A stretch of DNA of 64,000 bases from NCBI RefSeq assembly GCF_900107765.1, contig NZ_FNQY01000020.1, positions 1-64,000 of the forward strand. The letters are read 5' to 3'. The stretch is from Arachidicoccus rhizosphaerae (GTDB lineage: Bacteria; Bacteroidota; Bacteroidia; Chitinophagales; Chitinophagaceae). Shown piece after piece: positions 25,497 to 35,926 of this stretch. Made by a program: the position numbers and the translations under genes. The notes under the pieces were generated by a model. That model was not told the origin of the DNA, searched no databases, and was given only the letters and a program-made list of their open reading frames with translations. Within the stretch, counting starts at the first letter, position 1. The number at the start of each line of letters is the position of its first letter.

Positions 25497-27692
25497 ATGG
25501 AAGTATTCAGTAAGTCTGTACAGCTCTTACTGGGCGTATGCTTAATAGGGGGGAGTTTGCCGGCTCAAAATACCCACCAGTCAAATCAACAAGTCCCGGC
25601 TTCCAATACAATAAATTATGCCAGCTTAGTCAACACCAGGCTTGGGAATGCAAATGCAGGTAATACCTATCCGGGCGCTACCTATCCGTTTGGGATGGTG
25701 CAGTTTACCAGGACTTACTTTGATAAACAGCAGGGGTTTATTGTAAATCAGCTCAGTGGTGCCGGCTGTGATCATATGGGGAATTTTCCCGTACTACCTT
25801 TAAATGGGCGGTTAAGCATCTCTCCAGACAATATTAAAGACCTAAGGGCGGATATTCAAAAGGAAAAAGGTTCGGCAGGTTATTATGAGGCGACCGTTAA
25901 TAAGAATATTGATGTAAAGCTGACTGTTACCCCCAGAACAGGGTTTGCCCGGTTTGTTTTTGACGCAGACAGTACGACGGCTACCATTATTATTGGTGGC
26001 GGCGTAGCCTCCACACCACTTGCAGCTTCCGCTCTTGCCATAAGAGGTAAAAACAGCGTGGAAGGTTATGCCGATGGGGGCTCTTTTTGCGGGATAAAAT
26101 CGGCATATAAGGTCTATTTTGTAGCAGAATTTAACCAGGACGCCACAGCGGTAGGTACCTGGAAGGGGAACGAACTAAATCCTGGGGCAAGATTTGTGGA
26201 AGGACAGCATACGGGTGCTTATTTTAGTTTTGATATTAAAAACAGTAAGGAAATATGTTATAAAATAGGCATTTCCTATGTTTCGGTAGAGAATGCCAGA
26301 GAGAATCTTACAGCAGAGAGTGCGGGCTGGGATTTTAATAGTTTTAAGCATCATGCAGAAGCTGCCTGGAATCATTACCTGTCCAAAATTGAAATTGAAC
26401 AGGATGAGCAGGATGATCCAAGCCGTAAACAGCAGTTTTATACCCATCTTTATCATAGTTTTATCCATCCAAATATCTGCTCTGATGTAAACGGAGAATA
26501 CATGGGGGCTGACAATAAAGTCCACCGCTCTAATCGTCCAGAATATACATCCTTTAGCAATTGGGATACTTACAGAACACAGATCCAACTGTTAAGTATC
26601 CTGGCGCCGGAGGAAACTTCTGATATGGTCTATTCCCTGGGAGAGTTTGCTGAACAGGCGGGTGGCGGCATGCCACGTTGGGTACTGGCCAATAGAGAAA
26701 CAGGGGTCATGCAAGGAGATCCGTCTTCTATATTAGTAGCCAACGCCTACGCCTTTGGGGCCAGGAATTATGATGCCCGGAAACTACTACGGATTATGGT
26801 GCATGGCGCAACAGATTCCACGGCTCATGCACAGGGCTTTTTAACCAGGCCCGGATTAAAGCAGTATCTGGAAAAAGGCCATTATGACGCCTCGATTCAG
26901 CTGGAATATAATAGTGCTGATTTTGCCATTTCAAGGTTTGCGCTGGGCGCAACGGATGACCAGTATCTAAGCGGAAGCTTACAGGGTAGGGCTCAGAGTT
27001 GGAAAAACTTGTTTAATCCTGCCAGAGGATGGCTGCAGTCCAGAAATCCGGATGGTAGCTGGAAGCCGTATTATGAGGACTGGCGGGAATCTACCTTTAA
27101 AAACTACTTTTGGATGGTTCCATTTAATTTACGGGGGCTTATCGATATTATTGGCGGTGATAAAGTGGCTGAAGCCAGACTGGATTCTTTATTTGTCAGG
27201 CTAGACGCCAATTATGGGCAAGAGTGGTTTGCCAGTGGCAATGAGCCTAGTTTTGCCATTCCCTGGGTATATAACTGGGCCGGAGCTCCGTATAAGGCGC
27301 AAAATGTCGTACACCGGATAATTAAGGAGTGTTATTTTAATGGTCCGGGCGGATTACCAGGCAATGACGATTTAGGCGCTATGGGCGCGTACTATGTTTT
27401 CTGCACAATAGGTTTATATCCAGAAGTGCCCGGCGTGGGTGGCTTTTCAATCAATAGTCCCTTTTTTAAAGCCGTTAAACTGCATTTACCCGGTGGGACA
27501 ATCAGTATTAGTGGCGGTAGTTCTGCAAAACCTTATATTCAGTCTTTAAAAATTGATGGTAAGCCTTATTATAGCACCTGGATTCCATGGAAGCTGTTAA
27601 AGGGTGGTGCAAATCTGCAGTATCAGCTGGGAAGTAAGCCTGATAAAAAATGGGGAATAGCAGGCAAACCAACGCCGCCTTCTTTTGATTAG
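25497..27692 (+). CDS. GH92 family alpha-mannosidase (second copy in the PUL)
   Basis: The start at 25497 (731 residues) is preferred over an upstream ATG at 25416 because it opens directly on a signal peptide ('MEVFSKSVQLLLGVCLIGG', cleavage near LPA-QN). GH92 blocks: 'GNANAGNTYPGATYPFGMVQFTR', here split across about 50-72; 'FSNWDTYRTQIQLL' (about 353-366); 'ASGNEPSFAIPWVYNWAGAPYK' around Glu583, the predicted general acid; and 'PGNDDLGAMGAYYVF' (about 621-635), the acidic base motif. It is only distantly similar to the GH92 at 6555, so it probably cuts a different mannosidic linkage. A decayed copy of its 3' third lies at 33100-33833. Confidence 0.92.
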   Translation: MEVFSKSVQLLLGVCLIGGSLPAQNTHQSNQQVPASNTINYASLVNTRLGNANAGNTYPGATYPFGMVQFTRTYFDKQQGFIVNQLSGAGCDHMGNFPVLPLNGRLSISPDNIKDLRADIQKEKGSAGYYEATVNKNIDVKLTVTPRTGFARFVFDADSTTATIIIGGGVASTPLAASALAIRGKNSVEGYADGGSFCGIKSAYKVYFVAEFNQDATAVGTWKGNELNPGARFVEGQHTGAYFSFDIKNSKEICYKIGISYVSVENARENLTAESAGWDFNSFKHHAEAAWNHYLSKIEIEQDEQDDPSRKQQFYTHLYHSFIHPNICSDVNGEYMGADNKVHRSNRPEYTSFSNWDTYRTQIQLLSILAPEETSDMVYSLGEFAEQAGGGMPRWVLANRETGVMQGDPSSILVANAYAFGARNYDARKLLRIMVHGATDSTAHAQGFLTRPGLKQYLEKGHYDASIQLEYNSADFAISRFALGATDDQYLSGSLQGRAQSWKNLFNPARGWLQSRNPDGSWKPYYEDWRESTFKNYFWMVPFNLRGLIDIIGGDKVAEARLDSLFVRLDANYGQEWFASGNEPSFAIPWVYNWAGAPYKAQNVVHRIIKECYFNGPGGLPGNDDLGAMGAYYVFCTIGLYPEVPGVGGFSINSPFFKAVKLHLPGGTISISGGSSAKPYIQSLKIDGKPYYSTWIPWKLLKGGANLQYQLGSKPDKKWGIAGKPTPPSFD

Positions 27693-27937
27693 TTATTTGG
27701 AACTTAACTAAAAATTTTAAAGGATTATGTATTCCAACGCAAACGGCATAGTTTAAGTTCTTCATAATTGCGAAAGAAGGATTGCCGAAAAGATGATCCA
27801 TAAAAGGCTGCTACATTTGCATAGCGATATATAAAACACCTGTTATATATCGCAGGCTGTTACTATATATGCCTGATCTGGACTCCAGCCAATCATTTGT
27901 ATAGCCTGATTAACGATCTTACCGCCATCAGATATTG
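26946..27937 (+). repeat. Long direct repeat, left copy (GH92 3' end plus flank)
   Basis: This stretch, covering the last 750 bases of the GH92 gene and about 245 bases beyond its stop, aligns with 33162-34030 in the same orientation. Long exact runs are shared (for example GGCGCAACGGATGACCAGTA at 26946). The flank match includes 'AATC-TTTG-ATAGCCT-ATTAACGA' at 27891-27935. The left copy is coding and intact; the right one is degraded. Confidence 0.85.
27824..27853. terminator. Hairpin downstream of GH92 gene
   Basis: GCGATATATA at 27824-27833 is exactly complementary to 27844-27853, and A27834/T27843 add one more pair. It lies 130 bases after the GH92 stop. No T-run follows, so termination by this hairpin alone is uncertain. 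Confidence 0.35.
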
Positions 27938-27974
27938 CATGATACTGACTGTATCAGGCTTCGCAGGTGCGAAT

Positions 27975-28013
27975 AAAAAAGCCTCTAAATATACACATAT
28001 GTGGATTAGAGGC
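27975..28013 (-). terminator. Rho-independent terminator of the nrdJ transcript
   Basis: GCCTCTAA (27981-27988) pairs with TTAGAGGC (28006-28013), with an inner palindrome CACATATGTG. On the minus strand the stem is followed by TTTTTT (complement of 27975-27980). It sits about 90 bases after the nrdJ stop codon. Confidence 0.8.
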
Positions 28014-28104
28014 TCCCGGACGTTTCACTCAAATGGATGACACTATGTGTTTAAAGTGAGGAATCTTTTCTCCAAAGTTGAAATGCGCTGCATGTAATTA
28101 GTTT

Positions 28105-29706
28105 TTATTCGCATTTGGAATGACCGCAATCCTGACAGATTAAACAACCTTCCCGGTATTGTAGATGATGTCCCCCGCACTGTTGACATTGGCCCCCCAT
28201 GATTTGAGTATGATTAGGTATAAATCTTCTGAGTGCTCTGGCTATACCATTTTTCCAGGTATTTATATTGTCGTCCTTTAACTGTAATCCATTTACCAGC
28301 TTTACGACCTTTTCTATTGACATGCCATGTCGTAAAATGCCTGAAATAAGTTTTGCGTAATTCCAGTACTCAGGGTTGAATTTATGAGACAGGCCCTGAA
28401 TGGTGATTTTGTAGCCTTGTTGATTTTCGTATTGAAAATCATATCTGGATGGGCCGTCTGTCTGGTGGACTTTAATAATAACGCCTTGTTTTACCCACTT
28501 TGGAAGCAGTATGCCTAGGGTGTCATCAGCAATACCTGTAAATATTTCATAAGGTTTTTGATCGATTAGTCCGATAAAGGCAATCCATTTTTCTTCTTTG
28601 TTTTTAAAGTGTATGACTGCAGCCTGAATTATTTCAGGGCGTTGCAAGGGAAAACCGGGTGAAGTCTTGGGCGAAATATGGGCAGTAGGGGGATTAGGGG
28701 AGGTAGCTGCCATGCTATTGGGAGGGTGACCGCCGGTAGCTGCTGCTACTTCTTTTTTCTCCTCTTCTGCCTCTTCTTCCTTTTTCTTATTATTATCAAT
28801 ACCCATGAGCACCCCATAGCGGCTCCCTTCCCTGTAAACAGTGATGCCTTTACATCCAAACTGCCAGGCTTCCATATATAAATCGCCAACGAGCTCTTCA
28901 TTCACAGTTTGCGGCATATTGATGGTAACGCTGATGCTATGATCCACCCATTTTTGGATGGCCCCCTGAAGTCTTACTTTGGCCTTGTAATCTACGTCAC
29001 TGGAGGTAGATTTATAATAGGGAGATTGGCTGACCAGATTGTCCAGTTCTTGCTGACTATAGTTTTTATTAGTGTCATGACCGGATATCATCATCCAGTC
29101 TTTAAATTTATGATGAAAGACCCTGTAGGTTTCCCAATAGTCGCCAAGTTCGTCTTTAAAGTGCGTGATGGTGTTTTTGTCACCAGGATTGACTTTCCTG
29201 CGCCTTTGGTAAACAGGCATAAAAATGGGCTCTATACCAGAGGACGTCTGGGCCATAAGGCTGGTAGTGCCTGTTGGGGCAATGGTGAGTAAGGCTATAT
29301 TTCTGCGCCCGAACTGGCACATTTGTTCATATAAGGATGGGGCTTCTATTTTTAAGCGATTTATAAATGGGTTTTCGCTTTCACGGCTGCTGTCATAAAT
29401 GGGAAAGGCCCCCCTTTGCTTAGCTAACTCAACGGAGCTGGTGTATGCATTAAGGGCTAATAGCCTGTGGATTTTGGTCGAAAAAACAATACTCTGCTCA
29501 CTGCCGTATCGCAGGTCGAGGGCGGCTAACATATCCGCCTCTGCGGTTATACCAAGACCTGTTCTGCGCCCCTGCATAGCTTTTAACTGAATGGTTTCCC
29601 ATAATTGTTGCTCCACCTGTTTAACTGCTGTCGGTTCTGGATCTTCTTTTATTTTCTCCAAAATAGCGGCTATTTTTTCCAGTTCAAGGTCTATAAGATC
29701 ATCCAT
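28105..29706 (-). CDS. nrdJ: Class II (B12-dependent) ribonucleotide reductase, C-terminal part after in-frame stop
   Basis: 533 residues from the first ATG after the amber codon; the open frame actually continues back to 29784 in the same frame as the upstream part. It contains 'LTIAPTGTTSLMAQTSSGIEPIF', here given as two blocks, LTIAPTGTTSLMAQ and SSGIEPIF, which form the phosphate-binding and barrel region of class II reductases, and 'ITVYREGSRYGVL'. A Lys/Glu-rich low-complexity linker (about 308-328) follows. The extreme C terminus is a cysteine-rich zinc-finger-like tail ('CQQCGGHHLQYREGCLICQDCG') expected of NrdJ, here 22 residues with six cysteines counting the final one after it. Without the N-terminal half this fragment lacks the catalytic cysteine and cannot act alone unless the two chains associate. 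Confidence 0.85.
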   Translation of the reverse strand: MDDLIDLELEKIAAILEKIKEDPEPTAVKQVEQQLWETIQLKAMQGRRTGLGITAEADMLAALDLRYGSEQSIVFSTKIHRLLALNAYTSSVELAKQRGAFPIYDSSRESENPFINRLKIEAPSLYEQMCQFGRRNIALLTIAPTGTTSLMAQTSSGIEPIFMPVYQRRRKVNPGDKNTITHFKDELGDYWETYRVFHHKFKDWMMISGHDTNKNYSQQELDNLVSQSPYYKSTSSDVDYKAKVRLQGAIQKWVDHSISVTINMPQTVNEELVGDLYMEAWQFGCKGITVYREGSRYGVLMGIDNNKKKEEEAEEEKKEVAAATGGHPPNSMAATSPNPPTAHISPKTSPGFPLQRPEIIQAAVIHFKNKEEKWIAFIGLIDQKPYEIFTGIADDTLGILLPKWVKQGVIIKVHQTDGPSRYDFQYENQQGYKITIQGLSHKFNPEYWNYAKLISGILRHGMSIEKVVKLVNGLQLKDDNINTWKNGIARALRRFIPNHTQIMGGQCQQCGGHHLQYREGCLICQDCGHSKCE

Positions 29707-29784
29707 CAGTCTTTGGGCCTTTTGGACATGGTCGCTAAATAAGTTTTCATTAAAAGAGGCTTTTTGGGTAAATGGATGCTCGAC

Positions 29785-29787
29785 CTA
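29785..29787 (-). other. In-frame amber (TAG) codon 328 inside nrdJ
   Basis: Codons before it read Met-Ala-Ile-Asn-Leu-Tyr-Ser and codons after it read Val-Glu-His-Pro-Phe-Thr, the continuous sequence expected of a NrdJ at this point. No base is gained or lost, so this is a substitution and not a frameshift. TAG is used as an ordinary stop by at least five other genes here (for example those ending at 6486, 8876, 20738, 25238 and 27692), which argues against reassignment of TAG. Confidence 0.9.
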
Positions 29788-30768
29788 GCTGTATAAGTTG
29801 ATGGCCATTAACCGGCAGGAATCATAAGCGCATAAGGGTATTTCTCCACAAGGGTTGGTGCTGAGTGTTTTAAACCCTAAATCAGCATAGCAATCTGGAA
29901 TTGATTCCTTTATTATAGTATCCCAAAAAAGGATACCCGGCTCAGCACTCTGCCAGGCGTTATGGACGATTTTCTGCCAGAGCATGCCGGCATCAATTTC
30001 TTGTCGGCAAACCGGTGTCTTTGCGTTTACGGGATATTGTTGCGTAAAGGAAGTCTTGTTTTTTACGGCCTGCATAAATTCATCTGTTATGCGTACAGAA
30101 ATATTAGCGCCCGTAATTTTTTCCAGGTCTGTCTTGGTATCTATAAATGCTTCGCTGTCAGGATGTTTAATTGAAATCGATAGCATTAAGGCGCCTCGCC
30201 TGCCATCCTGAGCCACTTCTTTTGTAGAATTTGAATAGCGTTCCATATACGGGACGACACCTGTGGAGGTGAGGGCGGCATTTTTCACACGGCTTCCCTT
30301 TGGCCGGATGCAGGAGAGGTCATGGCCTACGCCACCTCGGCGTTTCATTAACTGCACCTGCTGCTGGTCTGTTTGTAGTATAGCACCATAGGAGTCGGCG
30401 TGGGTATCACTGCCGATGACAAAACAGTTAGATAATGAACTAATTTGAAAAAGATTACCGATACCTGCCATGGGGCTGCCTTGCGGGATAATGTACTTGA
30501 AATGGGAAAACAGATGAAAGATTTGCTCTTCCGTCATGGGGTTAGGGTATTTTTGTTCAATGCGGGCAAACTCAGCGGCCATCCGGTGGTGCATATCATC
30601 CGGTGATTTTTCATAAAGATGACCCATTGAGTCTTTGATGGCATATTTATTTATCCAAACCCTTGCGGCTAATTCGTCCCCTTTAAAATAAGCTAAGGTG
30701 TTTTCAAATACCTGCTGATGGGTATAAATGTTGCGTTGCTTTGCTGCTTCTGAGATATCTGTACTCAT
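29785..30768 (-). CDS. nrdJ: Class II (B12-dependent) ribonucleotide reductase, N-terminal part ending at in-frame TAG
   Basis: 327 residues. The enzyme reduces ribonucleotides to deoxyribonucleotides using adenosylcobalamin to make a thiyl radical. Key residues are visible: Cys115 ('SLSNCFVIGSD'), Cys307 and Glu309 in 'STNPCGEIPLC', and Cys318 in 'AYDSCRLM'. Cys307 and Cys318 are 11 apart, as are the thiyl Cys408 and redox Cys419 of the Lactobacillus enzyme (recalled). The chain stops at 'MAINLYS' with TAG; the same frame then continues without interruption to 28105. Read through, the protein would be 887 codons long, a normal NrdJ length. So this is either a recent nonsense mutation or a codon that is sometimes read through. 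It lies 108 bases downstream of the 618-residue gene. Confidence 0.85.
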   Translation of the reverse strand: MSTDISEAAKQRNIYTHQQVFENTLAYFKGDELAARVWINKYAIKDSMGHLYEKSPDDMHHRMAAEFARIEQKYPNPMTEEQIFHLFSHFKYIIPQGSPMAGIGNLFQISSLSNCFVIGSDTHADSYGAILQTDQQQVQLMKRRGGVGHDLSCIRPKGSRVKNAALTSTGVVPYMERYSNSTKEVAQDGRRGALMLSISIKHPDSEAFIDTKTDLEKITGANISVRITDEFMQAVKNKTSFTQQYPVNAKTPVCRQEIDAGMLWQKIVHNAWQSAEPGILFWDTIIKESIPDCYADLGFKTLSTNPCGEIPLCAYDSCRLMAINLYS

Positions 30769-30876
30769 GTATAATTAATTTAATATGAAGGGTATTACAG
30801 AGAAGGAGTTGGTGATAATGATGTTAGCGGTCTCTGGTGTAAATAGAAAAGTAATTGGTCATTTCCTCTATGCTGG

Positions 30877-32733
30877 CTAAGCCTGCAGAACTGAAGATGT
30901 CGAGGGCATACTCGGGCCACAATGCTTAATTGATTGAGTAAGTTCCGCAGCAGCGATATCTAATTGGATGATAAAAGCCGCTATCTGAGACTCATTGTAG
31001 TCATTTATGATCGTTGCTTTTTTTCGGTAATAGGTAATAGCCTCCTGAATTTGCATATAGAAATGCTGGATAAATTTTTTCCTTTTTTTGTCCGGGCTTT
31101 GGAGCTCTTTTACTTGGTTCCTTAAATACTCAATATAAATATATAGTTCGTTAATAAAGAAATGCGGTCTATTTACTTCTGTAATTATATTTGTTTTTCC
31201 ATAGATATGACCTACCATTTGCTGTAAGGAAACGACTTTAGAAAAATAAATAATATTGGGCCCGGGACAGATGGCTACAGCCGTCAGATTATTTAAAAAA
31301 GGTTGTTGATATTGGATTGGCGCAGCGTTGCTTAATCCAATACACAGGCATTCCTTATCCATTATCGATTTTTTGGCGGTCTCATACTCCTGGGAAGGAA
31401 GATGTAAGCTTTTTAATTGGTTGAGCTTCAGCTGCTGGTATTTTACCGATGCTGTGCAGATGGGTAATTTTGTAAATTCTGTATTATTAACTAAATGCCT
31501 TTCTGTACAGGGGCTACCTGGACGCTTTTGGGTTATTCTGCTATGTTTTTCCAAATCGGAACTAGTGCCTTTTAAATAATAAAAGGGTACTCCCAGCGGG
31601 GAATTCGGGCTGATTTGTATGGAAGATTTTTGCGCCTTTTGTAATAAGGTAAGGGTGGGCAGATCGACCGTTGTAGCTTCGGGAACGAGTAGGAAGGGGG
31701 TGCCCCAACCTGCAGCGTCTAAACCGTAATGGTTTTGAACAAACAGATGCTCTTTATTTGTGGCAATGCCGCCCTGATAGGTTATTTTTATTGGATGTGG
31801 AGTCTGGTAAGTCGGACAAGATTTTGCTGCTAAGGCTTTATTATATAGGTCAAACAAGGTGGCACATAGCTCACTGCGTTTGCTTTTAAACTCCTCCAGC
31901 GTTGGCCCTATTAGGTTGCCATCGCCCACAAAGGCGTGACCGCCGCAGTTTAATCCGGATTCAATCCTGAACTCACTGACCCAGACGCCTTTTTTAGCAA
32001 GATATTTCCCCTGAATTAATGCAGATCTGTAATCACTGACTTTAAGTGCTATTTTTTTATCAAATTTACCTGGGGCTTTAGCATCAAATTGTCTGCATTT
32101 TTCCAGGTAATTAAATAATCTCGGGTTGAGCCCTGCTGAGAAGATTATAGTAGAGTTGGTCAAATCACTTTTTGCGTAGCCTCTTAACGCTGATACGGCG
32201 TCTGAGCTGTCTTCTATGACCGCACCGTCCTTGGTATAATTATCCTTATCCACTTTGGTCATAATATTTACATCAATGCTGCCTGCTCTGACATTGGCCT
32301 TTAATATTTGTTTGAGCCCCTCTTTTTCCAAGGTGTCGTTTGAGGCTTGCATATAGCTATATAACATACTTAAGTCGCTTTTGTTAGGCAGCATTTCAAA
32401 ATATTTGACAAGATCAGAGCCTGCCTCGAAGATTGATTTTTTGATTTTGTCAATTTGATTATTGACGACTCTGTTGATAAGGTTTAGATAATCTGTAATT
32501 CTATTTTCCCGGCTATTTCCCTGTTTGGTAGGGATGGGGATAAAGGGCTCTTCTATGGCGTTGTAATAATATTTACGCATGGTTTCGATGAGTCTGTCCT
32601 CCATAATGGATATCGCGGAACTAATACCGAACTTGGCTACTTTTAATGGTGAATCTATGGTGAAGGCCAGACCCATAACTGGAATATAGAATTGGTGTGG
32701 TGGAAGTTGCATTTTGTATATAGGTTGTTGCAT
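30877..32733 (-). CDS. Conserved protein of unknown function, TIM-barrel-like, upstream of nrdJ
   Basis: 618 residues, no signal peptide, so cytoplasmic. I do not recognise a named family with certainty. The first 370 residues have features of FMN-binding TIM barrels related to nitronate monooxygenases: 'MGLAFTIDSPLKVAKFGIS' near the start, 'ESGLNCGGHAF' (258-268), and 'ITYQGGIATNKEHLF' then 'GLDAAGWGTPFLLVPEA' (about 317-353), like the glycine-rich loop and phosphate site of that fold. The C-terminal part has several cysteines ('SPCTERHL', 'LPICTAS', 'KECLCIG', 'ICPGP') that could bind metal or an iron-sulfur cluster. The gene is upstream of nrdJ in the same direction, so a linked metabolic or redox role is possible. 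Confidence 0.7.
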   Translation of the reverse strand: MQQPIYKMQLPPHQFYIPVMGLAFTIDSPLKVAKFGISSAISIMEDRLIETMRKYYYNAIEEPFIPIPTKQGNSRENRITDYLNLINRVVNNQIDKIKKSIFEAGSDLVKYFEMLPNKSDLSMLYSYMQASNDTLEKEGLKQILKANVRAGSIDVNIMTKVDKDNYTKDGAVIEDSSDAVSALRGYAKSDLTNSTIIFSAGLNPRLFNYLEKCRQFDAKAPGKFDKKIALKVSDYRSALIQGKYLAKKGVWVSEFRIESGLNCGGHAFVGDGNLIGPTLEEFKSKRSELCATLFDLYNKALAAKSCPTYQTPHPIKITYQGGIATNKEHLFVQNHYGLDAAGWGTPFLLVPEATTVDLPTLTLLQKAQKSSIQISPNSPLGVPFYYLKGTSSDLEKHSRITQKRPGSPCTERHLVNNTEFTKLPICTASVKYQQLKLNQLKSLHLPSQEYETAKKSIMDKECLCIGLSNAAPIQYQQPFLNNLTAVAICPGPNIIYFSKVVSLQQMVGHIYGKTNIITEVNRPHFFINELYIYIEYLRNQVKELQSPDKKRKKFIQHFYMQIQEAITYYRKKATIINDYNESQIAAFIIQLDIAAAELTQSIKHCGPSMPSTSSVLQA

Positions 32734-32769
32734 CTGCAGATAAGAAATTTAACTTTAGTGATTGAAAAG

Positions 32770-32777
32770 CAAAACTA
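32770..32777 (-). promoter_or_regulatory. Possible -7 element for the 618-residue protein/nrdJ transcript
   Basis: On the minus strand this reads TAGTTTTG, matching TAnnTTTG, 36 bases ahead of the start codon. The expected upstream TTTG is not found at 19-21 bases; a TTG is present at only 15 bases (32793-32795). Confidence 0.3.
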
Positions 32778-33099
32778 TTAAAAAAGGATATCCAAGTCTT
32801 TTATTAAGATATGATTTTGGTCATATGGTTGATTTTATCCAGAGCGGTTGCGTTGGAGTTGCTACATGGAGATTAAAAGTCTTTTTGTGTCTTTAGTAAT
32901 GCGTAGTGATCTTGGGATTTCCAGTGTTCGGCTTCTGCCTGTAATCCATTCAGATGCTGGAAAAAGGAGGAAAATGTTGCAAATCAGTTGTCGCTCAGAC
33001 CCCATGAGGCTGAATAAACATGCGAAGCGTTGCTGGTATATTGCTTTAATGGGCCTCAATTTAAAAGTGCATGGCAATGTTTTGTATCGGGAAATTAAA

Positions 33100-33833
33100 A
33101 CGACTAAGTCAGGTATATATATTGCTGTTTTTGCAATGTTTCGATTTCCGGGTTTGCTATAGGCGCAACGGATGACCAGTATCTATACGGAAACATACAG
33201 GGGAGGGCTCAGAGTTGGAAAAATTTATTTAATCCTGCCAGAGGGTGCAACAGTCCAGAAATCCGGATGGCAGCTGGAAGCCGTGTTACGAGCACTGGAG
33301 GGAATCTATCTTTAAAAACAACTTTTGGATGAACCCGATTAATTTATGGGGGCTTATTGATATTATTGGGCATGCGTAGTTTGCCAGTGGCAATGAGCCT
33401 AGTTATGCCGTTCATCGGGTATATAACTGGGTCGGATTACCGTAAAAAACATAAAATATCGTCCAAAGTATTATTAAGAAATGCTATTTTAATGGTCAGG
33501 ACGGATTATCAGGCAATGATGATTTAGGCGATATGGATTCTTACTATATTTTTTTCACGATAGGGAAGTACCTGATGTTGGTTGATTTTTTATAAATAGT
33601 CCTTTTTTTTAAGCCATTAAACAGCCTTTATCCGACGGAACAATAAGCATTGCTGGCGGTAGTTCCACAAATCCATTTGTTCAGTCTTTAAAAATTGATG
33701 GTAAGCCTTTCATAGTACCTGGATTCCATGGGAGCTGTTAAAGGGCGGTACAAATTTGCAATATCAGCTGGGAAGTAAGCCTTATCAAAAGTGGGGAATA
33801 GCAGGCAAACCAGTTCCGCCGCCATTTGATTAA
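33100..33833 (+). pseudogene. Decayed GH92 mannosidase gene (3' part only)
   Basis: This stretch aligns with the 3' third of the GH92 gene at 25497-27692, with strong matching from 33162 (GGCGCAACGGATGACCAGTA) through the homologous stop TAA at 33831-33833. The reading frame is broken by several small insertions and deletions and internal stops, and about 70 bases corresponding to 27155-27225 are missing. Still readable are the acid motif 'SGNEPS' (around 33372-33400) and 'GNDDLGD' (around 33510-33530). Homology to the left of 33162 fades; weak similarity can be followed to about 33050. No intact 5' half exists: it would fall where the nrdJ block's upstream region lies. It is a fossil of a gene duplication and is unlikely to make protein. 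Confidence 0.88.
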
Positions 33834-34030
33834 GTGGTCAGGCATTTATTGTTGAATGGCGTATTTCCCCTTATATGGTGCGATGCGACCCAACTATGGC
33901 CAAGGGGGCCGTCCAAAATGATTGCAGTCAATTTGAATAGTATCTGCCACTGTATTATTAAGCCCCGTCTTTGAACACAAATCAATCGTTTGCATAGCCT
34001 TATTAACGACATTGCCGCCAAAAAATATCA
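33162..34030 (+). repeat. Long direct repeat, right copy (degraded)
   Basis: Counterpart of 26946-27937. Beyond the pseudogene stop, 33834-34030 still matches the downstream flank of the intact GH92 gene; the best run is 33983-34028 against 27890-27935 (about 80 percent identical by eye). The copies are in the same orientation about 6 kb apart and bracket the nrdJ block. Confidence 0.82.
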
Positions 34031-34110
34031 CTGTGAATAAAGGTTCATCTTGTTTTTTTAACCTTCCTTTTATTTTAGTAGCTTGTTTGGGTAGTTTTCC
34101 TGTTTAATTA

Positions 34111-34147
34111 AAATCGGGACCTCTTATTAAAAAGAGTGTCCCGATTT
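34111..34147 (-). terminator. Terminator of the SusC/SusD transcript
   Basis: AAATCGGGACCTCTT (34111-34125) pairs with AAGAG-GTCCCGATTT (34132-34147) with one bulged T. On the minus strand the stem is followed by T-rich sequence (TTTTAATTAAA). It is 50 bases after the SusD stop and may work in both directions. Confidence 0.7.
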
Positions 34148-34195
34148 CCATTTTCATATAATAAACTAGTCCTTTGACAAGTCATTTTCTTACCC

Positions 34196-35926
34196 TTACT
34201 GACCTGCAATATTTTGGATTAAGACACCACCTGAGCGGTCGATTTGCTCCTGCGGTATCGGGAAGATCTCATCCTTGTCCTCAAAAGTAATGGTCTGAGA
34301 GGCAGAGACATATTCCTTCTCAAAATTCTGATAGCTTTCTATTACAGATTTTGCCAGGCCCCAACGAACCAGGTCATAGAAACGGTGACCTTCCAGCGCT
34401 AATTCTAATCTTCGTTCTGTCTCGATGGCAGACATGGCATAGTCTTTACTGGCAAAACTGGGGTAGGGTTTTATCAAGTAATTAGCAGCGTTTTTGCCGT
34501 CTATTTTAAGTGCCGGCAGTGAAGCGGCTCTGTTGCGAACGTCATTTACCCGGTCAAGTGCGTATCCTAAGTCGCCTGTTTGGGCGGCACATTCAGCTGC
34601 CATCAGATAAACGTCTGCCAAACGAATGATATTAACATTTAGGCTGGTGATTTCTTCAGTACCTGATACTGTATTGCCGCCAAAATCAGCTTTGTCAATC
34701 ATTTGTTTTTTAGAGACAAACGGTCCTCCAAAGGCTGCTTCACGAATCCATGCATCTCCGGGAAAGATGCCCCAGTCTTTATAAGGAACCCCTCTTCTTC
34801 CTACGGTATAATCCAAGCGAGGGTCAACTCTAAGTGTCTGATCCACCTTGTAGTTTTCCTTAGCTGCTCCCGATAGCCCTAAATCAGAGACATATGGATC
34901 GGTCCTATAAGCAGTTACACTTAACGGCAAACCATCGGCTCCAGTTCTATAGGCATTTACCAGATCAACAGATGGTTGGAAAAATCCACAGCAACTAATG
35001 GGAGCTGTACCGTATAATCCAGAAAGCATATCACCGACATTGCCATTATCTCCCGAACCGTCTGGATTGATAATATGCTGAGCGGCAAAAATACTACCAG
35101 GTCCATTTTCTTTGTTCACATCAAAATTATCAGTAAAGGCAATGGTACTCAGTGCTGGTTTCTTGGAGATAACATCTTTAAATAGCACTAAAGCTTCACT
35201 GTATTTTTCTTCATACAGATACAATTTACCTAGATAGGATTCTGCTGCGTATTTATCTACTCTTCCGGCTTCGCCATTGGGTTTGTCGAAGCTTAAATTG
35301 TCTACTGCAAACTGAAAATCTGCCTCAATTTTTGGCGTGACGTCTACGTCATTGGCAACTTTTGCCGCTTCCGCTGTTTCGGTAATAGATTCATCTATGT
35401 AAGGAATTTCGTTGCCGAATACCCTGGTTAAGAAGAAATAATAATGTCCTCTTAGAAATTTGGCCTGGGCTTCAATTAATTTAGCCTCGTCATCAGTAAA
35501 CTTATCATTTTGATCAGTAGCCTGAAGGGCAGTTAATAATTTAAGTGTCAGGTTACAACGGATTATTCCTTCATAATAATTGGTCCACATGGTTGGTAAA
35601 TTGTCATTACTAGGAATAACCTTGTGTAACTCAATGTCATTCATTGGAGATTGGTCTGCATTGCTACTGCCTTTATGAGCATCATCAGCCGCAACTTCAC
35701 CGAATAGCCATTGGCTGGGAGCAGAGGAATAATTGCCCCAGGTTCCGTTAATATTGCCATTTACCAAGCCATAGGCACCTATCAAAGCACTATTGACGGC
35801 ATTTGTTGTCAATAACTGATCTTCGGTAATCTGCGCCTTAGGCGTTGTTTCCAAAAAGCCCTTTCCGCAACCAAAAAGTGCGAATAGGAGGCAAAGTGGA
35901 AGGATTATTTGATTGATCTTTTTCAT
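34196..35926 (-). CDS. SusD/RagB-type glycan-binding lipoprotein
   Basis: 576 residues. Lipoprotein signal with Cys20 ('LLFALFGCGKGFLETTP'). SusD blocks: 'LIEAQAKFLRGHYYFFLTRVFG' in two parts (EAQAKFLRGHYYFF, LTRVFG), and near the C terminus 'IRLADVYLMAAECAAQTGD', 'VNDVRNRA', 'ETERRLELALEGHRFYDLVRWG'. It lies 34 bases downstream of its SusC gene on the same strand and ends before a strong hairpin. It should be the surface lid of that transporter. The locus also holds GH2, GH29 and SGNH genes, so the ligand is probably a galactose- and fucose-bearing glycan (inference). Confidence 0.94.
   Translation of the reverse strand: MKKINQIILPLCLLFALFGCGKGFLETTPKAQITEDQLLTTNAVNSALIGAYGLVNGNINGTWGNYSSAPSQWLFGEVAADDAHKGSSNADQSPMNDIELHKVIPSNDNLPTMWTNYYEGIIRCNLTLKLLTALQATDQNDKFTDDEAKLIEAQAKFLRGHYYFFLTRVFGNEIPYIDESITETAEAAKVANDVDVTPKIEADFQFAVDNLSFDKPNGEAGRVDKYAAESYLGKLYLYEEKYSEALVLFKDVISKKPALSTIAFTDNFDVNKENGPGSIFAAQHIINPDGSGDNGNVGDMLSGLYGTAPISCCGFFQPSVDLVNAYRTGADGLPLSVTAYRTDPYVSDLGLSGAAKENYKVDQTLRVDPRLDYTVGRRGVPYKDWGIFPGDAWIREAAFGGPFVSKKQMIDKADFGGNTVSGTEEITSLNVNIIRLADVYLMAAECAAQTGDLGYALDRVNDVRNRAASLPALKIDGKNAANYLIKPYPSFASKDYAMSAIETERRLELALEGHRFYDLVRWGLAKSVIESYQNFEKEYVSASQTITFEDKDEIFPIPQEQIDRSGGVLIQNIAGQ

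Follow-up and report, generated by a model that had tools for sequence, protein, structure and literature searches.

Nonsense pseudogenes of redundant bacterial genes are a known kind of locus. Among class II ribonucleotide reductases (NrdJ), the Thermotoga maritima enzyme (TIGR02504; PDB 1XJE, 1XJK) is like the gene reported here in near end-to-end coverage of the model and in its active-site and redox cysteine residues; counted from the alignment, the amber codon described below takes the position equivalent to its Phe343. A second arrangement comes from Pseudomonas aeruginosa, where, according to the available portions of the sources, the reductase is encoded by two genes in one operon: NrdJa has 734 residues and NrdJb 229 (PMC4520616), the second being the cysteine-rich domain, and both chains are needed (PMC4520616, PMC5704485).

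The window analysed, the whole 64,000-nucleotide stretch at positions 1 to 64,000 of Arachidicoccus rhizosphaerae contig NZ_FNQY01000020.1, contains an nrdJ frame with one stop codon in its interior. We consider this locus to be an accessory class II ribonucleotide reductase gene that was inactivated recently, that is, a recent nonsense pseudogene, with a probability of about 0.72. Its features, and the gene beside it, are as follows.

29785..30768, minus strand: N-terminal open frame of nrdJ, 327 codons and then TAG; contains Cys115, Asn305, Cys307, Glu309 and Cys318
29785..29787, minus strand: in-frame amber TAG, nrdJ codon 328; a Tyr/Phe position in aligned relatives
29704..29706, minus strand: ATG at codon 355, earliest in-frame candidate for a restart, 26 codons past the nrdJ stop
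28105..29784, minus strand: in-frame C-terminal remainder of nrdJ, with 559 codons and a final TAA; remaining barrel and cysteine-rich domain
28108..28191, minus strand: C-terminal tail of NrdJ with six Cys; resembles the cysteine-rich domain that many class II reductases have
30877..32733, minus strand: 618-aa protein of an unnamed family, just upstream of nrdJ

One reductase frame with an internal stop

Positions 28105-30768 of the minus strand form one class II (AdoCbl-dependent) ribonucleotide reductase frame whose sole interruption is the TAG at 29785-29787. The coding part (28108-30768) comprises 887 codons with this one internal stop, and the terminal TAA lies at 28105-28107. Residues 1-327 match positions 2-301 of the TIGR02504 NrdJ_Z profile and residues 329-887 match positions 310-603 of 606, the two halves together covering the profile over nearly its whole length. 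Their scores (255.6 and 262.6 bits) each fall below the whole-protein cut-off of 399.95, as expected of halves. The same division is seen with Pfam PF02867, of which the halves match positions 1-235 and 275-523 of 523. As they match successive stretches of the profile, the halves are consecutive parts of one enzyme, and the initial annotation was right in reading a single in-frame amber that splits NrdJ. What the locus encodes is neither one continuous chain nor a proven functional split, owing to the TAG at codon 328.

The protein was aligned in 56 rows, consisting of 48 loci (L019-L066) of 80, seven close family relatives and the window protein; the 32 more distant loci of the 80 were omitted. 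The Asn, Cys and Glu of the active site and the redox cysteine pair, which we take to be Asn305, Cys307 and Glu309 and Cys115 and Cys318, respectively, are all present, and each is identical in 54 of the 55 aligned relatives, with a gap in the remaining row. Six cysteines fall within the last 28 residues, a tail like the class II cysteine-rich domain in the accessible part of PMC5704485. Both the catalytic set Cys307/Glu309/Cys318 and the cysteine-rich tail are thus as intact as first described. The usual residue at codon 328, for which an alignment of relatives had been proposed, proved to be Tyr (40 of 55) or Phe (14), the one other row (L066, where the region is missing) being misaligned. 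Three metagenome-assembled relatives have irregularities of their own: a frame change near residue 746 in L044, a stop at residue 494, near a contig end, in L059, and the absence of residues 326-424 in L066.

Same-frame stops flanked on each side by 150 or more open codons occur four times in 110,613 bases of the genome. Two of the other three are the ends of listed window ORFs with another ORF after them, and one lies between efflux-pump and HlyD-type frames, leaving the nrdJ TAG as the only one of the four to split a single protein. A chance open frame is no concern for this observation. The window gave no Rfam match at the gathering score, and no tRNAs were found in it.

Class I reductase and the distribution of nrdJ

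The initial annotation had reasoned that, if the cell had no other reductase, readthrough or suppression of the stop would be essential for DNA synthesis, and had pointed to a genome-wide search for other classes. This search was informative. The genome (4,867,350 bases in 54 contigs, listed as 99.99% complete) contains a second PF02867 locus, an intact NrdA-type open frame of 575 aa that scores above the curated cut-offs for class I alpha subunits in three models (NF006577, TIGR02510 and TIGR02506). An adjoining 324-aa frame is of NrdB type and scores 228.2 bits against PF00268 (Pfam cut-off 33.6); its subtype is unsure because it lies below the cut-offs of all NCBIfam models matched (best 173.3 versus 237). 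The class III family PF13597 had no match in the genome. A cobalamin adenosyltransferase gene is retained. NrdJ as the cell's sole reductase is therefore ruled out by the class I frames.

The other members of the genus give a similar picture. Among the matches listed, no NrdJ was found in the five other genus genomes, making this the only one of six to have it; each of the five has one PF02867 locus, and the tested stretch of each has class I alpha models as its best matches. With class I present in its own genome and NrdJ absent from the sister genomes, NrdJ counts as accessory in this genome and its loss can be tolerated, the cell's need for a reductase most likely being met by class I. The class I genes and the sister-genome absence together suggest that nrdJ is dispensable, and the claim that readthrough would be essential finds no support. 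In its place stands something less striking than an essential reductase dependent on amber readthrough, namely the early loss of a redundant one.

The class I genes of the genus are themselves of two lengths. Siblings G002 (L007) and G004 (L006) have a long class I alpha subunit, with open frames of 805 and 809 codons and TIGR02506 as the best model, and the other four genus genomes have a short one of 575-580 codons with NF006577 as the best model. Within this one genus, the type of reductase is swapped.

In sibling G005, the flanking SusC/SusD genes (87% and 83% identity) and the GH92 gene (72%) occur in the same order and orientation, the interval from SusD to GH92 containing approximately 14 kb of other genes but lacking nrdJ (L192); sibling G001 has other genes after SusD. 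The SusD-GH92 interval is a variable site, occupied in the present genome by the 618-aa gene and nrdJ (window positions 27692-34196, compared with L192).

A scan of 394 family genomes, this one included, identified at least seven others with a full-length close NrdJ relative (63-67% identity), and among the matches listed none of these seven carries a stop. The disabling change is hence absent from the full-length relatives and class I is present, as expected of a pseudogene whose product the cell can probably do without; the counterpoint is that there is a single disabling change and decay is not otherwise visible. An eighth family genome (G160, L112, contig 41) has an isolated stretch of 148 residues that matches NrdJ residues 704-851 at 64% identity, and its 3,450-base locus contains no further NrdJ sequence. 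The stretch is either what remains of an nrdJ gene or a domain standing by itself, and it fits repeated loss of nrdJ. In the NrdJ tree, family genome G126 groups with genus g31 (support 99), and in the RpoB tree it stands beside the genus studied here. The gene may have been gained in the present lineage or lost in the other members of the genus. Two plasmid records from Bacteroidales (OY725985.1 and NZ_OY725752.1; approximately 62% identity) also carry NrdJ sequences, as does a phage-collection record named Bacteriophage sp. (MT835965.1, 61%).

The 618-aa protein encoded just upstream of nrdJ had no match in Pfam or NCBIfam at E 0.001. Relatives were found in at least 54 of 195 family genomes (this one included; a few as fragments only), and it would appear to belong to a widespread unnamed family; among the matches listed, three sibling genomes lack it. 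An operon link with nrdJ was considered and rejected: the two genes are near one another in only two of 54 NrdJ-relative loci (L028 and L054, both from distant Bacteroidota), and G126 carries them on different contigs, so there is no fixed link between them.

Age of the stop and rate of evolution

Of all single changes possible in the nrdJ frame, 374 of 7,974 (4.7%) create a stop, so that 106-125 new stops would be expected for each unit of neutral divergence. As no second stop is present, the time since loss is bounded to approximately 0.024-0.028 substitutions per site, or about 2-3% neutral divergence; including indels, assumed at 10% of substitutions, lowers this to approximately 0.008. 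This bound and the single disabling change agree with the view first put forward that the stop is either very recent or a sequencing error. With regard to stops and frameshifts, the accompanying statement that the gene shows no other sign of decay is correct; it does not extend to the protein sequence, whose branch is unusually long and which deviates at seven of the 259 columns with at least 95% conservation, where the seven close family relatives deviate at none or one.

Branch lengths were taken from an NrdJ tree of 46 of the 56 rows, after dropping those shorter than 820 residues and L044, L066, L036 and L055. The branch leading to the present genome is 2.6-3.2 times as long as its sister branch. 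For comparison, RpoB was taken from 14 genomes, one of which had no RpoB match: the ratio is 1.3-1.6 with two outgroups (via L020 and L021) and 1.6-2.3 with G344 as the outgroup, lying at 2.1-2.3 in four of five comparisons. The terminal branch of the present genome is also the longest in the tree of the 618-aa protein. Since the RpoB ratios rise with G344 and the 618-aa branch is longest as well, acceleration of NrdJ is weak evidence of decay.

Private changes and branch ratios were analysed in 37 of the 46 tree rows, the nine distant ones being omitted. Relative to branch length, private changes at invariant sites amount to 13.9 in the window NrdJ, 15.0 in L039 and 5.4-40.0 in the next five. 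A concentration of decay in the part beyond the stop, the C-terminal part, was not seen: 24 private residues lie N-terminal and 62 C-terminal to the stop, and the other 36 sequences together have 209 and 500 (Fisher p 0.80). With private changes within the range of long branches and no C-terminal accumulation, NrdJ has been under constraint during most of its evolution. Constraint may have been weaker already before the stop arose, and the protein would seem to have evolved somewhat fast under constraint until a recent break.

Readings of the stop and comparison with known systems

In the favoured reading, a single nonsense change at codon 328 would truncate NrdJ translation inside the catalytic barrel, and the resulting 327-residue fragment, without the remaining barrel or the cysteine-rich tail, would yield no NrdJ enzyme. 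The cell would then rely on class I NrdA/NrdB, whose genes are intact and presumably active, as the sister species appear to do. Class I reductase chemistry requires oxygen, and what the change would probably have cost the cell is a B12-dependent backup that works without oxygen. On this reading the locus is a case of ordinary gene loss, seen early.

The foremost alternative, although an unlikely one, is that the TAG is a consensus base-calling error in the 54-contig draft and the living gene is intact. That there is just one disabling change in 2.66 kb, that all catalytic residues are retained and that the neutral-time bound is small are what an error would produce. However, only 4.7% of single changes in this frame yield a stop, and the 110,613 bases contain no other split gene of this kind, although a lone split gene in that length cannot by itself separate error from mutation. 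Substitution errors are rare in deep short-read consensus, and in well-covered drafts real nonsense pseudogenes are more numerous per genome than such errors, which favours a real stop.

It is improbable that nonsense suppression or programmed readthrough yields some full-length NrdJ. The frame is open on either side of the TAG, and a near-cognate Tyr tRNA could conceivably supply the residue usual in relatives. Against this, all 41 tRNAs found in the genome have sense anticodons and none has CUA, in a set that is incomplete (150 of 274 candidates scored), as no Ile-GAU or Ala-UGC is in the list; the amber suppressor tRNA suggested at the outset did not appear among them. Reassignment of TAG was ruled out, since it terminates 10 of 27 other window ORFs (those left of the 35 listed once six short, overlapping ORFs and both nrdJ halves are set aside) and is thus a working stop. 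A recoding structure after the stop was likewise discarded, the RNA there folding no better than shuffled sequence (z -1.22, with 22 of 200 shuffles as good). Among the matches listed, no close family relative shares the stop at codon 328, and with class I present readthrough is unnecessary. The idea that the stop is tolerated by readthrough, also raised by the initial annotation, is therefore not supported. Less probable again is its weaker form, in which low-level amber readthrough with no dedicated suppressor tRNA would keep the oxygen-independent class II backup at low dose. A literature search on stop codon readthrough with amber in Bacteroidetes surfaced nothing but termination-codon evolution.

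The idea of a two-chain enzyme, made of residues 1-327 and a second chain restarted at the codon 355 ATG, is the least credible of all: a split class II reductase does work in P. aeruginosa, but the break here cuts the barrel 21 residues past the active-site Cys, a restart would omit 26 residues, and the codon 355 Met is kept in all 55 aligned relatives, present for protein reasons and so not an evolved start.

The likeness to NrdJa/NrdJb goes as far as a class II reductase in two consecutive open frames. In the portions of PMC4520616 that describe it, the P. aeruginosa split frees the redox part while catalysis and B12 binding stay together in NrdJa, and because these sit in one chain it is no good model for the nrdJ break. 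In contrast to that boundary between catalytic and cysteine-rich parts, each with its own start, the stop in the window lies within the barrel and inside PF02867, has no start codon at the break (the first possible restart being codon 355) and does not occur in the aligned relatives.

No literature was found on an nrdJ ribonucleotide reductase with a premature stop codon or as a pseudogene. With nonsense pseudogenes of redundant bacterial genes in general, the locus shares a single stop, an accessory gene, an intact substitute and absence from sister species; it differs from them in nothing of note, and has been caught very early.
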